In this document: one piece after another, positions 3,230 through 27,713 of the stretch | Layout: every line of letters begins with the position of its first letter | Numbering within the stretch: position 1 is the stretch's first letter | Source: Virgibacillus doumboii | Lineage (GTDB): Bacteria > Bacillota > Bacilli > Bacillales > Amphibacillaceae | Direction: 5' to 3' | Assembly (NCBI RefSeq): GCF_902806455.1 | Contig: NZ_CADCWQ010000002.1 | Span: forward strand, 372,001 to 436,000 | DNA length: 64,000 nt | Translations under genes and position numbers: made by a program | The notes under the pieces: model-generated | The model's database searches: none | What the model saw: only the letters and a program-made list of their open reading frames with translations | What the model was told of the DNA's origin: nothing

Positions 3230-3249
3230 AATAAAAAGTTAGGCATTAA

Positions 3250-3350
3250 ACGGTCCGACTACTTCCCTCTCGCAGGAATTATCCTGATCAGGTTCCAAGG
3301 GACAAAGGAACAACCTTTTCTCAGCCATAACAGCGCCCCCAGCAGTTCAT
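3250..3350 (-). ncRNA. TPP riboswitch (thi-box) before tenA
   Basis: Read on the reverse strand, the segment contains the thi-box landmarks in order: a GGGGGCGC start, GGCTGAGA (pyrimidine-sensing helix arm), a variable stem, AACCTGATCAGGATAAT, TCCTGCG and finally GAGGGAAGTAG. These match the conserved core of TPP aptamers. It sits between thiW and tenA, inside the operon, and is the second of two aptamers in the transcript. Confidence 0.93.
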
Positions 3351-3956: not shown

Positions 3957-3974
3957 AAATAGTTTGCTAGTCAA

Positions 3975-4085
3975 GATTGCAGTCTACTTCCCTCCGCTGG
4001 TATTAACCAGATCAGGTCCATAAGAGTCAGAAAGTTTATTTGCACTTTCCTCTCAGCCCGCATTTTGGGCACCCCTAGTAGTGAA
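3975..4085 (-). ncRNA. TPP riboswitch (thi-box) before thiW
   Basis: The reverse strand shows CTACTAGGGGTGC, GGGCTGAGAGG, GGACCTGATCTGGTTAAT, ACCAGCGGAGG and GAAGTAG. The outer CTACT/AGTAG pair can form helix P1. This is a complete thi-box aptamer at the head of the thi operon. With the terminator at 3922-3956 it should switch off the whole operon when TPP is plentiful. Confidence 0.95.
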
Positions 4086-4222
4086 ATTGGAACTATTTAA
4101 CTGTTCTGCTTAAGCATAACAAAAGAAATGCAGTTTGTCATGGGTAGTTTGGTGGAGTCTGCAATCACTGCTTTCTGCTATACTAATTGTAATTAATCGG
4201 CGAGGGGAGGTTGTTGATATAA

Positions 4223-25300: not shown

Positions 25301-25329
25301 TTGACTTTTCACACGCCCGCTCATATAAT
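25301..25329 (+). promoter_or_regulatory. Sigma-A promoter of the ABC-F leader
   Basis: TTGACT (25301-25306), a 17-bp spacer and TATAAT (25324-25329) form a near-consensus promoter. The start point should be near 25336, 15 bp before the leader-peptide SD, leaving an untranslated leader of about 315 nt. Confidence 0.8.
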
Positions 25330-25366
25330 AAATTGTAATTCGAAATTAAAGGAGGATTATTAAAGA

Positions 25367-25408
25367 ATGGCTTCAATCAGATTGCGTTTCCCAACTTTGA
25401 ACAAGTAA
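25367..25408 (+). CDS. ErmD-leader-like regulatory peptide MASIRLRFPTLNK
   Basis: A 13-codon frame follows AAAGGAGG and ends in TAA. The core RLRFPTLN is the same as in the ErmD/ErmK leader peptide (MTHSMRLRFPTLNQ, from memory), whose RLR motif stalls ribosomes that hold a macrolide. The last codons (CTTTGAAC, 25395-25402) pair perfectly with GTTCAAAG (25417-25424), so a ribosome stalled at RLR would open this hairpin. It is therefore read as an antibiotic sensor for the ABC-F gene downstream. Confidence 0.8.
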   Translation: MASIRLRFPTLNK

Positions 25409-25504
25409 TTTCATACGTTCAAAGGCTCTGCTTGTGTATGCGGAGTAAACGGGAGTAGTCTGTCCTTTTTTAATAATCTATAATTAACGTAAATGTCAGT
25501 TGTA

Positions 25505-25538
25505 GAAAGGCGGCTCGTTCTGCCTTTCTTTATTTTTT
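25505..25538 (+). terminator. Leader terminator 1
   Basis: GAAAGGC / GCCTTTC with an internal loop is followed by TTTATTTTTT. It lies inside the leader between the sensor peptide and the ABC-F gene, so it is a likely attenuator. Confidence 0.75.
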
Positions 25539-25607
25539 ATGCAACAAATTCATTGGGGAAGTATATTTTTTTGGCAACAGGATTTGTTCCACTTCCGTTT
25601 ACCTCGG

Positions 25608-25637
25608 ATCACAGGCAGCTGTCTGTGATTTTTTATT
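25608..25637 (+). terminator. Leader terminator 2, abutting the ABC-F SD
   Basis: ATCACAG / CTGTGAT with an 8-base loop is followed by TTTTTATT and ends 2 bp before the GGAGGG SD. Reading through it must be required for expression. A possible competing stem is formed by GGAAGT (near 25558) and ACTTCC (near 25591). Confidence 0.75.
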
Positions 25638-25652
25638 ATGGAGGGAACATAT

Positions 25653-27116
25653 ATGGAACAATTAAAACTGGAGTTAACGAACATCGAAGTGTCATTTTTG
25701 GATAAATTGGTACTGGATATTCCGAAATTATCGGTTTATCAATTTGACCGGATTGGGCTTGTTGGAAAAAATGGATCAGGGAAAAGCACGTTGTTGAAAC
25801 TGATGAATGGAGATATTAATCCAAATAAAGGCAATATTCATTGTCTCACTGATATTGGTTATTTTGAACAGACATCATCACCTGTCGATGGTGAGATGGA
25901 TTATGAACTGCTTGGAAAATTAGCTGTTCCCAATATGGATATTGGAAAGCTGAGCGGCGGAGAGCAAACACGAAAAAAGATGGCACAATTATTTTCAACG
26001 TATTATGAATTGATGCTGATTGATGAACCTACCACACATTTGGACAGCACTGGAACAGATTTTCTAATCGACCAGTTGAAGTATTATTATGGTGCCTTCC
26101 TATTGGTGAGTCATGACCGCTACTTGTTGGATCAGCTGGTGACAAAAATCTGGGAAATTAAAGATGGGAAGATTACCGAGTACACAGGGAATTATTCGGA
26201 TTATGAAGAGCAGAAGGAATTGGAAACAAGACAGCAGCAGGAACAGCATGAGTTATACGTAAAAGAGAAAAACAGGCTGTTAAAAGCTGCTGATGAGAAG
26301 ATGGAAAAAGCGAAAAAGGTGACCCAGACAAACAAAAATTTATCCAAAAAAGATATAAAGGCAAAAGCCAACAAAATGTTTATGACAAAATCAAAAGGAA
26401 CCAGCCAAAAGTCGGTACAGCGTGCAGCGAAGGCCATTGAGCAGCGGGTAGAACAACTTGATGCGGTGGAAGCACCTGAAGAGGAAAAACTGCTTTATTT
26501 TCATCAGTCCGAGGCACTGCAACTGCATAATAAGCTTCCGGTTATGGCAGACCGGCTGACATTGTATGCTGGTGATAAACTTCTTTTACAGGAGGCAAGT
26601 TTTCAATTCCCGTTGGGGGCAACCATTGCAATTACAGGGGAGAATGGGTCCGGAAAGACGACGCTTCTCGAGCATATAGTAAATCATGGAGAATGTATTG
26701 AGTTGTCTCCCAAAGTCGCTTTTGGAGTATATGAACAAATGGAATTTCAATTTAATAAGGCAGAAACAGTCCTTTCGTATATGAAAAACAGGAGTGATCA
26801 TAATGAGGGAAGGATTCGGGCTGTTCTTAATTCCATGAACTTTACCGGTAATGACATTAAAAAAGATGTACGTGAATTAAGCGGCGGTGAAGCGATTCGC
26901 CTTGTGCTGTGTCAGCTTTTTCTGGGAAGATACAACGTGCTTATTCTGGATGAACCGACGAATTTTCTGGATGTCGATTGCATCGTAGCTTTGGAGAAGT
27001 TCTTGAAAGCTTATCAGGGAACGGTACTTCTGGTTTCACATGATCGGCGGTTTGTCGAACGGGTGGCTGATTATAAATATGTGATTGAAGAGCAGCGGTT
27101 GAAATTGAAAGATTAA
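25653..27116 (+). CDS. ABC-F ribosome-protection protein (Msr/Vga/VmlR type)
   Basis: The 487-residue protein has two ABC ATPase domains and no membrane domain. Domain 1 has GLVGKNGSGKSTLLKL (Walker A), KLSGGEQTRKKMA (signature) and LMLIDEPTTHLD. Domain 2 has ITGENGSGKTTLLEH, ELSGGEAIRLVL and VLILDEPTNFLD. The charged linker between them (about 190-300) is the P-site-reaching region of ABC-F proteins that displace antibiotics from the ribosome. Its length is close to Msr and Vga proteins. The macrolide-type leader suggests macrolide-class protection, though VmlR-like lincosamide/pleuromutilin specificity is possible. ATG 25653 has SD GGAGGG at 7 bp. Confidence 0.85.
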   Translation: MEQLKLELTNIEVSFLDKLVLDIPKLSVYQFDRIGLVGKNGSGKSTLLKLMNGDINPNKGNIHCLTDIGYFEQTSSPVDGEMDYELLGKLAVPNMDIGKLSGGEQTRKKMAQLFSTYYELMLIDEPTTHLDSTGTDFLIDQLKYYYGAFLLVSHDRYLLDQLVTKIWEIKDGKITEYTGNYSDYEEQKELETRQQQEQHELYVKEKNRLLKAADEKMEKAKKVTQTNKNLSKKDIKAKANKMFMTKSKGTSQKSVQRAAKAIEQRVEQLDAVEAPEEEKLLYFHQSEALQLHNKLPVMADRLTLYAGDKLLLQEASFQFPLGATIAITGENGSGKTTLLEHIVNHGECIELSPKVAFGVYEQMEFQFNKAETVLSYMKNRSDHNEGRIRAVLNSMNFTGNDIKKDVRELSGGEAIRLVLCQLFLGRYNVLILDEPTNFLDVDCIVALEKFLKAYQGTVLLVSHDRRFVERVADYKYVIEEQRLKLKD

Positions 27117-27140: not shown

Positions 27141-27190
27141 TAAAAATAGCCGGGAAAAGATATTTCTGTCTACTATCATTCCCGGCTATT
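27141..27190 (-). terminator. Terminator overlapping the toxin stop
   Basis: AATAGCCGGGAA / TTCCCGGCTATT is a perfect 12-bp stem with a 22-base loop. On the reverse strand it is followed by TTTATAAAA. It includes the toxin stop codon and separates it from the converging ABC-F gene. Confidence 0.75.
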
Positions 27191-27461
27191 GATTTTGTCC
27201 GGAGTGTTTAAAGTACTCTATATTACAGGTTTTCCTGTCTTCTGAAAATGAATAGTAAACTGTATACTTGTCGATAATTACTTTGTAACTGCTTTTCCAG
27301 ATTGGATCGTTTACTTTTAGGCTTGTACCTAGTAGAGAAATTTTTTCCTGAATCCTAATTGTTAAAGTTTTCTTATATTCTTTTGTCTCTGCAGTAGTGA
27401 AATATTGACTTTGAATATTATTGAATCCTTCTAAAGCCTGATTGGTCCATTTTATTTCCAA
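27186..27461 (-). CDS. RelE/ParE-family toxin
   Basis: The 91-residue protein begins MEIKWTNQALEGFNNIQSQY, continues with IRIQEKISLLG, and has SYKVIIDKYTVYYSFSED near the end, the typical layout of the RelE/ParE toxin fold. It starts at TTG 27461, immediately after the antitoxin TAA, so the two are translationally coupled. Whether it cuts ribosome-bound mRNA (RelE) or poisons gyrase (ParE) cannot be told from sequence. Confidence 0.75.
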   Translation of the reverse strand: MEIKWTNQALEGFNNIQSQYFTTAETKEYKKTLTIRIQEKISLLGTSLKVNDPIWKSSYKVIIDKYTVYYSFSEDRKTCNIEYFKHSGQNQ

Positions 27462-27713
27462 TTATAGATCACCTTGATCAATCATTTTTAAAACGTCATC
27501 GGTTGAGTATACATTTCCGCTCGATATGTCTTTTTTTGCCTGTCTCAATTTACCTTCCAGTTCGGGGGCGGATTCAATATCTTCTTGTATTGTAGTCTCA
27601 GGTTCCTCAATTACAGCAAGGTGATATCTCTTACCATCTATTTCATAAACAGACTCTTCATCGTGGATAATGTTTTTCATAATTTCAGCTGCATTTCCTT
27701 TTAGCTTCTTCAT
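27462..27713 (-). CDS. Antitoxin of the RelE/ParE-type pair
   Basis: The 83-residue protein is upstream of and adjacent to the toxin, the usual order. The N-terminal half (AAEIMKNIIHDEESVYEIDG) could form the DNA-binding part, and the acidic helical C-terminal half (APELEGKLRQAKKDISSG) could wrap the toxin. ATG 27713 has GGAGGTAATGGTGGC before it. The assignment relies mainly on position and size. Confidence 0.7.
   Translation of the reverse strand: MKKLKGNAAEIMKNIIHDEESVYEIDGKRYHLAVIEEPETTIQEDIESAPELEGKLRQAKKDISSGNVYSTDDVLKMIDQGDL

Follow-up and report, generated by a model that had tools for sequence, protein, structure and literature searches.

Locus and predicted features

The DNA analysed here (the window) is a 64,000-nt stretch of Virgibacillus doumboii contig NZ_CADCWQ010000002.1 (positions 372,001 to 436,000, forward strand; coordinates below count from its first letter), in which an ABC-F gene is preceded by a leader encoding a short peptide with the Arg-Leu-Arg (RLR) arrest motif. 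We treat this leader as a candidate macrolide-responsive attenuator. The gene (25653..27116, + strand, 487 aa) encodes an Msr-family ABC-F ribosomal protection protein: NCBIfam model NF000168 matched residues 1-486 at 731.4 bits, above its curated cutoff of 680, giving a family to what the first-pass annotation of the window had named simply as ABC-F. By sequence, the best relative of the protein among solved structures is chain 5zlu_EE, its nearest Msr relative stands at 80% (G009), and the next best match within its own genome is 34% identical.

Upstream, also on the + strand, a consensus scan found a sigma-A-type promoter-like site, TTGACT-17-TATAAT (25301..25329), with 11 of 12 consensus matches, in agreement with its earlier description as near-perfect; it would place the transcription start near 25336. 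A Shine-Dalgarno sequence (SD; AAGGAGG, 25349-25355) precedes the leader open reading frame (ORF) MASIRLRFPTLNK (25367..25408), which was recognised from the sequence and from a 28-leader pattern and alignment. Both lie within or begin a 133-nt core RNA element (25349..25481), the attenuator core, which matches our covariance model R1 at 137.5 bits (E 4.8e-28), a score that is not independent, the window element being one of the 28 sequences that built the model. Between this core and the gene a hairpin scan placed two terminator-like hairpins, T1 with its U-tail (25504..25529) and T2 (25606-25631, with a U-tail to 25637; 25606..25637 in all), and the end of T2 adjoins the SD of the ABC-F gene. 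The two hairpins, the second abutting the SD, had been called correctly. As detailed below, T2 is the one that we predict to be regulated.

Kinship with erm(D) and erm(K) leaders

A degenerate DNA pattern for RLRFPTLN had a single occurrence in the window, and 100 shuffles gave none; across 159 genomes of the family it occurred at 28 places in 27 genomes, while the reversed control pattern gave one. The first sizeable ORF after these 28 leaders, judged by reading, was msr in 16 cases (two of them shortened, L039 and L043), erm in five, rlmA-like in four and mef-like in three; NCBIfam scans covered relatives of the erm, rlmA-like and mef-like classes and the window msr. The core had been equated with that of the ErmD and ErmK leader peptides, and it does match the printed peptides, MTHAMRLRFPTLNQ for erm(K) (PMC4335068, Table 3) and MTHSMRLRFPTLNQ for ErmDL (PMC10314930).

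In the aligned leaders, conserved DNA extends well outside the reading frame: it starts at the SD spacer and runs to ~70 nt downstream of the stop codon. The alignment of leader and flanks to erm(D) that the first-pass annotation had proposed gave 88.7% identity over 98% of the element, against Bacillus licheniformis plasmid pBL141-1 (NZ_CP021671), where the element adjoins a predicted ErmD gene. Because identity spans the SD spacer and ~70 nt past the stop codon, we ascribe common descent to the whole attenuator; judged from sequence, the window leader and the erm(D) leader are related by ancestry, beyond mere likeness of their peptides. The annotation had offered either recombination between an erm leader and an ABC-F gene or convergent selection for RLR. 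The choice comes down on the side of shared ancestry of the whole attenuator, and convergence is not upheld; but erm is not the evident donor, since at least six gene classes share the element and erm follows it at only 29 of the 200 loci described below.

RNA structure and codon choice

Four helices, P0 to P3, were common to single-sequence folds and to the consensus fold under one scoring. P0 joins the spacer between SD and start (25354..25370) to the U-tract (25464-25479) in the minimum free energy fold and shows two-sided changes in relatives; P1, from the same fold, joins the RLR-FP codons (25378..25392) to 25451-25462; P2 joins the TLN codons (25395-25402) to 25417-25424 (GTTCAAAG); and P3 (25425-25431 with 25440-25446) is paired in 98.8% and 96.5% of cells in relatives. 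P2 is the 8-bp hairpin of the last codons noted before, real as described, although it is one of four helices in a larger structure.

Pairing holds in 94.9% of cells across the 28 seed leaders, vs. 37-53% with slid partners. Two sets of relatives were also scored: 95.1% of cells were paired in set A3, with 123 two-sided cells (22.6 when shuffled, at most 42 when slid), and 89.9% in set A4, with 412 (132 shuffled, at most 124 slid). P0 was paired in 97.3% (A3) and 91.2% (A4) of cells, and in P2 a C-G pair was replaced on both sides by U-A in two leaders, both before erm. Several observations count against this structure. The default consensus fold held P1, P2 and P3 and lacked P0; covariation in the seed alignment was weak on two of five measures, where 26 and 81 of 500 shuffles scored as high; and inner P1 was paired in just 81.1% (A3) and 71.6% (A4) of cells. 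Further, the sets A3 and A4 were fitted to the model and are thereby biased in its favour. At the third base of the Leu codon, within P1, two-sided cells (22 in A3, 14 in A4) were outnumbered by unpaired ones (32 and 41).

Codon choice tracks this pairing. At paired sites of the 28 leaders, Arg5 is AGA in 27, Thr is ACT in all 28 and Leu11 is TTG in 27, while at unpaired sites Pro uses four third bases and Arg7 three. In a wider set of 177 leaders with a script-found motif, AGA encodes the first Arg in 167 and CGN codons the second in 171. That the FPTLN residues past the arrest site are held in common with ErmDL is thus explained in part by the many codon bases that are paired in the RNA. The element is an RLR upstream ORF (uORF) inside a covarying RNA in Bacillales, as the available description of the uORFC-6-1 motif would have it (PMC8632094).

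A predicted terminator/antiterminator switch

Folded freely, the window RNA up to 25490 adopted the closed structure at -44.6 kcal/mol, and T1 and T2 were predicted with probabilities of 0.94 and 0.83. We then masked bases up to 25397 as a proxy for the stalled ribosome, a footprint assumed for a ribosome with Leu6 in the P site, and the probability of T2 fell from 0.83 to 0.00. This predicted loss arises because an antiterminator strand (25427..25463, + strand) pairs with 25576-25618, in a duplex of -38.3 kcal/mol. The stalled ribosome had been expected to melt the 8-bp hairpin; the footprint does take the first three bases of its 5' arm, but the rest stays free, and it is P0 and P1 that are blocked instead.

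Among relatives, masking lowered the mean probability of T2 from 0.86 to 0.35, with 51 of 94 switching and none reversed. The antiterminator strand also fitted its own T2 region better than swapped partners (75 of 97 lower, P = 4.5e-11), whereas in the T1 control native pairs did no better than swapped ones (44 of 95, P = 0.33). Since T2 switches and shows this fit to its own region, unlike T1, we take T2 as the predicted regulated terminator; by folding, an antiterminator that competes with a terminator ahead of the gene is predicted for T2 and not for T1. A candidate T1 antiterminator, AGUCUGUCCUUUUU pairing with the T1 5' arm, was dropped: although its arms paired better than shuffled ones (median z -1.86), T1 persists in equilibrium folding and, as just noted, native pairs did no better than swapped ones.

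Other results tell against the switch, or limit it. T1 was not dissolved by masking, passing from 0.94 to 0.90 on the full leader and from 0.93 to 0.68 on a transcript ending after T1; in relatives its mean went from 0.92 to 0.84, with 5 of 89 switching and one reversing. T2 failed to switch in 43 of the 94 relatives (33 kept T2, and 10 were without it in both states), and the elements before mph switched least, at 2 of 19. The script detected T1 in 97 and T2 in 95 of 186 examinable loci. Finally, the equilibrium model does not tell a stalled ribosome from one at the stop codon (T2 0.00 for both), so that the OFF state must rest on ribosome release and timing. Timing matters at the start of the leader too: its SD lies inside P0, and translation must therefore start while the U-tract has yet to be transcribed. 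By analogy with the B. subtilis tlrB leader as it is described (PMC6851288), RNA polymerase could pause at the U6 tract.

Distribution of the element and the genes behind it

A scan of genome contigs with the ABC-F protein gave two loci only, and most relatives came from genome searches. In the family, an R1 element lay no more than 2.5 kb upstream of the gene, on the same strand, at 54 of 58 Msr loci, and within 750 nt at 41, so a search for such leaders, of the kind that had been suggested, bore out the association. The other four loci run counter to it: one is cut by a contig end, and at the three others an R1 search with filters off gave a best E of 0.024, for a plain hairpin. Given this frequency and the RLR-type leaders printed before msr(A) (MTASMRLK) and msr(C) (MTASMKLRFELLNNN) (PMC4335068), an RLR leader before msr is less unusual than the first-pass annotation had supposed.

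R1, with matches taken at E 1e-3 or better, found the element in 76 of 159 genomes of the family, 128 of 397 in an order sample, 77 of 398 in a class sample and 7 of 299 in a phylum sample; these samples overlap, and each includes the genome of the window. We assembled 200 element loci, 60 from the searches and 140 fetched mostly by score, and classed their first sizeable gene by script and BLAST clusters. The classes were mph-like (42), ABC-F (40), mef-like (33), erm (29), hflX (27), rlmA-like (14), lmrB-like (4), short-chain dehydrogenase/reductase (SDR; 2), odd (2) and none (7). The 200 exclude matches that were not printed, the weakest matches, about a dozen middling ones whose genera were already represented, and most family rows with an Msr hit, and because of this last exclusion msr is under-counted among them. 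The class search supplied 23 more loci, comprising ABC-F (12), mef (3), rlmA (2), erm (2), mph (1) and unassigned genes (3). In an NCBIfam scan of twenty downstream proteins, Erm, HflX, DHA2 efflux and one SDR reached a curated cutoff, and proteins of the Mph, Mef and RlmA groups were nearest to those families while falling below the cutoffs of the named models. The Erm protein of L245 was nearest to Erm(C)/(G). At L229, an element match of 40.9 bits precedes an ABC-F gene nearest to Sal, not Msr.

By script, 178 of 191 leaders of the eight named classes had an R/K-X-R/K motif and 160 had RLR, and T1- and T2-like hairpins recur before differing gene classes. From this sequence evidence, one homologous attenuator family stands before erm, msr, mef, rlmA, mph and hflX genes. 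A tree of 186 distinct elements required 48 changes of gene class, where the minimum is 7 and shuffled labels gave a mean of 118 and a lowest value of 108, a pattern which suggests that the gene behind the element has been exchanged repeatedly. Since operons occur behind elements (msr-mph at nine loci, rlmA-msr at eight and mef-msr at three) and some changes reflect gain or loss of a first gene in them, we do not count the changes on the tree as transfers. Two loci may have been orphaned by gene loss: at L085 a sugar ABC transporter gene follows the element, and at L098 an element in which no RLR leader was found precedes a glycine-betaine binding protein-like gene.

A plasmid search with the window element matched 23 records, of which we opened 13, plus one from a second search. 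The element lies next to a predicted ErmD in a B. licheniformis plasmid; before mef(F)-msr(G) in plasmid records of Lysinibacillus capsici, Exiguobacterium acetylicum and Macrococcoides canis; before an MFS gene and an msr(G)-like gene in a Metabacillus record; before a putative RNA methyltransferase and msr in two Priestia plasmids; before Mph genes in Planococcus, Priestia and Exiguobacterium arabatum (predicted mphN) records; and before msr in a Lysinibacillus fusiformis plasmid. SDR oxidoreductases follow it in plasmids of Latilactobacillus curvatus and of Acinetobacter variabilis, in the latter beside IS26. One record labelled Stenotrophomonas rhizophila (L303, CP031730) has the same neighbours (D-alanine--D-alanine ligase, YitT and msr) as the L. 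fusiformis plasmid (L304, NZ_CP130332), which makes the host label doubtful and possibly misassigned. Against phage records the element had no match at E 1e-5 or better, the only alignment being 26 bases at E 0.4.

Variants without the RLR motif

Some elements carry a different peptide. A variant with the leader MIDILTLNR precedes short-chain dehydrogenase genes at L306 (2473-2586), L307 (2977-3090) and L266, and at L226 the RLR-less leader MLVNFRVLNS likewise precedes a short-chain dehydrogenase gene. These four loci lie on the Latilactobacillus plasmid, on the Acinetobacter plasmid beside IS26, and in two genomes; the SDRs behind these variants are possible uncharacterised resistance enzymes. 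Six elements before erm (L248, L250 and L255-L258) have leaders in which the script found no R/K-X-R/K motif, for example MLNIMGVIKTYRALNM, which suggests that the RNA has been kept while its sensor peptide changed. Weaker elements at L209, L228, L263 and L267 precede lmrB-like DHA2 efflux genes, with no script-found RLR in the leader.

These cases admit a broader and more tentative proposal, to which we would give slightly less than even odds. It holds that a single RNA chassis with an exchangeable sensor peptide stands before genes of almost all macrolide-resistance classes in Bacilli (methylation, ABC-F protection, efflux, phosphorylation and ribosome splitting), and that genes of unknown role behind it would be new resistance genes, above all the SDRs of the MIDILTLNR variant and of L226, as drug-modifying enzymes sensed by a different peptide.

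Comparison with known systems

The ermK leader has two terminators. Transcription attenuators of ermK and mef/mel are experimental precedents for the kind of control proposed here, as summarised in a review (PMC5418344). The B. licheniformis erm(D)/erm(K) attenuator shares with the window element the RLRFPTLN core, homologous leader DNA and control by termination in the leader (PMC5418344); the window element differs in preceding an Msr ABC-F gene, not a 23S rRNA methylase, and in its N-terminus, MASI. The mef(E)/mel, msr(A) and msr(C) systems likewise have an RLR-type leader before mef or msr, and mef(E)/mel is macrolide-inducible by transcription attenuation, but no homology is discernible between the leader regions of mef(E)/mel and erm(K) (PMC4335068). 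With filters off, the leader region of mef(A) in phage phi1207.3, whose peptide is MTASMRLR, gave no R1 match up to E 1, and we rejected membership of the streptococcal mef attenuator in the family on that result.

The motif uORFC-6-1 is a covarying RNA with a conserved Arg-Leu-Arg uORF, with 51 representatives, found mainly in Bacillales and mainly before hflX (PMC8632094); hflX follows 27 of our 200 R1 loci, though not the window element. By its description, its structure is confined to RNA downstream of the uORF start, in contrast to P0 here, which takes in SD and spacer, and the available part of its text names hflX and none of erm, msr, mph, mef and rlmA (PMC8632094). In Listeria, hflXr/rli80 also combines a 14-aa RLR leader with a terminator/antiterminator switch, there backed by mutants; it differs in controlling HflXr and in being induced by lincomycin and erythromycin (PMC6310831). 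The tlrB (yxjB) gene of B. subtilis encodes RlmAII, comparable to the rlmA-like genes behind some relatives, and its leader SD is also trapped in a closed structure, but its peptide is MIIQFIRYR, its inducer is tylosin and not erythromycin, and it needs NusG pausing (PMC6851288).

In Rfam 15 the window element had no match at the gathering score (best sub-threshold score 16.7 bits vs. 58.7), and eight other loci had none in their elements, the single match lying elsewhere in L306. RLR-type leaders before msr (PMC4335068) and the RLR motif before hflX (PMC8632094) are already published. Our literature search, thin on subscription papers and therefore weak evidence of absence, found no statement of one homologous RNA serving erm, msr, mef, rlmA, mph and hflX.

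Two features lie apart from this system in the window. On the - strand, two thiamine pyrophosphate riboswitches lie ~620 bases apart (3247-3350 and 3972-4086), and downstream of msr, also on the - strand (27186-27713), two short adjacent ORFs resemble, by eye, a RelE/ParE-type toxin-antitoxin pair.

Interpretation

We consider the locus to be an ermK-type, ribosome-sensed transcription attenuator that induces the chromosomal Msr ABC-F gene on macrolides, with a probability of roughly 0.87, and the RNA switch probably senses macrolides via a stalled ribosome. In the proposed mechanism, without drug the leader would be translated and the ribosome released, the RNA would close into P0, P1, P2 and P3, and RNA polymerase would terminate at the hairpins ahead of msr. 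A macrolide-bound ribosome would instead stall at RLR (Leu6 and Arg7 being expected in the P and A sites, respectively), covering the SD spacer and the RLR codons and preventing P0 and P1. The freed strand 25427-25463 would then pair with 25576-25618, the region that holds the T2 5' arm, and because this arm is taken up, RNA polymerase, having presumably passed T1, would read into msr, whose product would in turn protect the ribosome and so confer resistance.

Three alternatives were weighed against this mechanism. Had the RLRFPTLN core arisen independently in erm and msr leaders by selection on the arrest peptide, likeness of the RNA should be limited to what the peptide needs. RLR leaders do exist on RNA of no recognisable kinship, as the absence of an R1 match at phi1207.3 mef(A) and the comparison of mef(E)/mel with erm(K) (PMC4335068) illustrate. 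Yet here the identity also takes in the SD spacer and reaches ~70 nt downstream of the stop codon, synonymous sites are near-fixed where paired and variable where unpaired, and hairpins resembling T1 and T2 are found again ahead of other gene classes; we rejected convergence of the peptide alone on the conservation of the non-coding parts and of the paired synonymous sites, and give an independent origin scarcely any credence. That the leader is a decayed remnant, kept after regulation was lost and with msr constitutive or silent, might be read from its N-terminus, where MASI is unusual (17 of the other 27 leaders have MTH or VTH), but we find this very improbable for a leader in which the promoter-like site, SD, RLR, four helices, antiterminator and T2 are all present and whose antiterminator energy is the lowest among the nine loci listed.

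The remaining alternative concerns the level of control, and would have the leader act mainly by translation attenuation, with the msr start hidden, or by mRNA stability, and not by transcription termination. The adjacency of T2 to the msr SD fits such a scheme, and B. subtilis tlrB is described as joining termination with SD sequestration (PMC6851288). Against it, T1 and T2 are terminator-like, with U-tails, and the antiterminator strand pairs better with its own T2 region than with swapped ones, so that we hold this alternative to be unlikely and prefer transcription attenuation at the msr leader.

Attenuators that we found described singly, as for ermK and for uORFC-6-1/hflX, are brought by this analysis into one RNA family with a testable structure. 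The R1 model finds such elements in genomes, even before genes without a known role in resistance, and the family raises the evolutionary question of whether sensor modules spread independently of the resistance mechanisms that they control.

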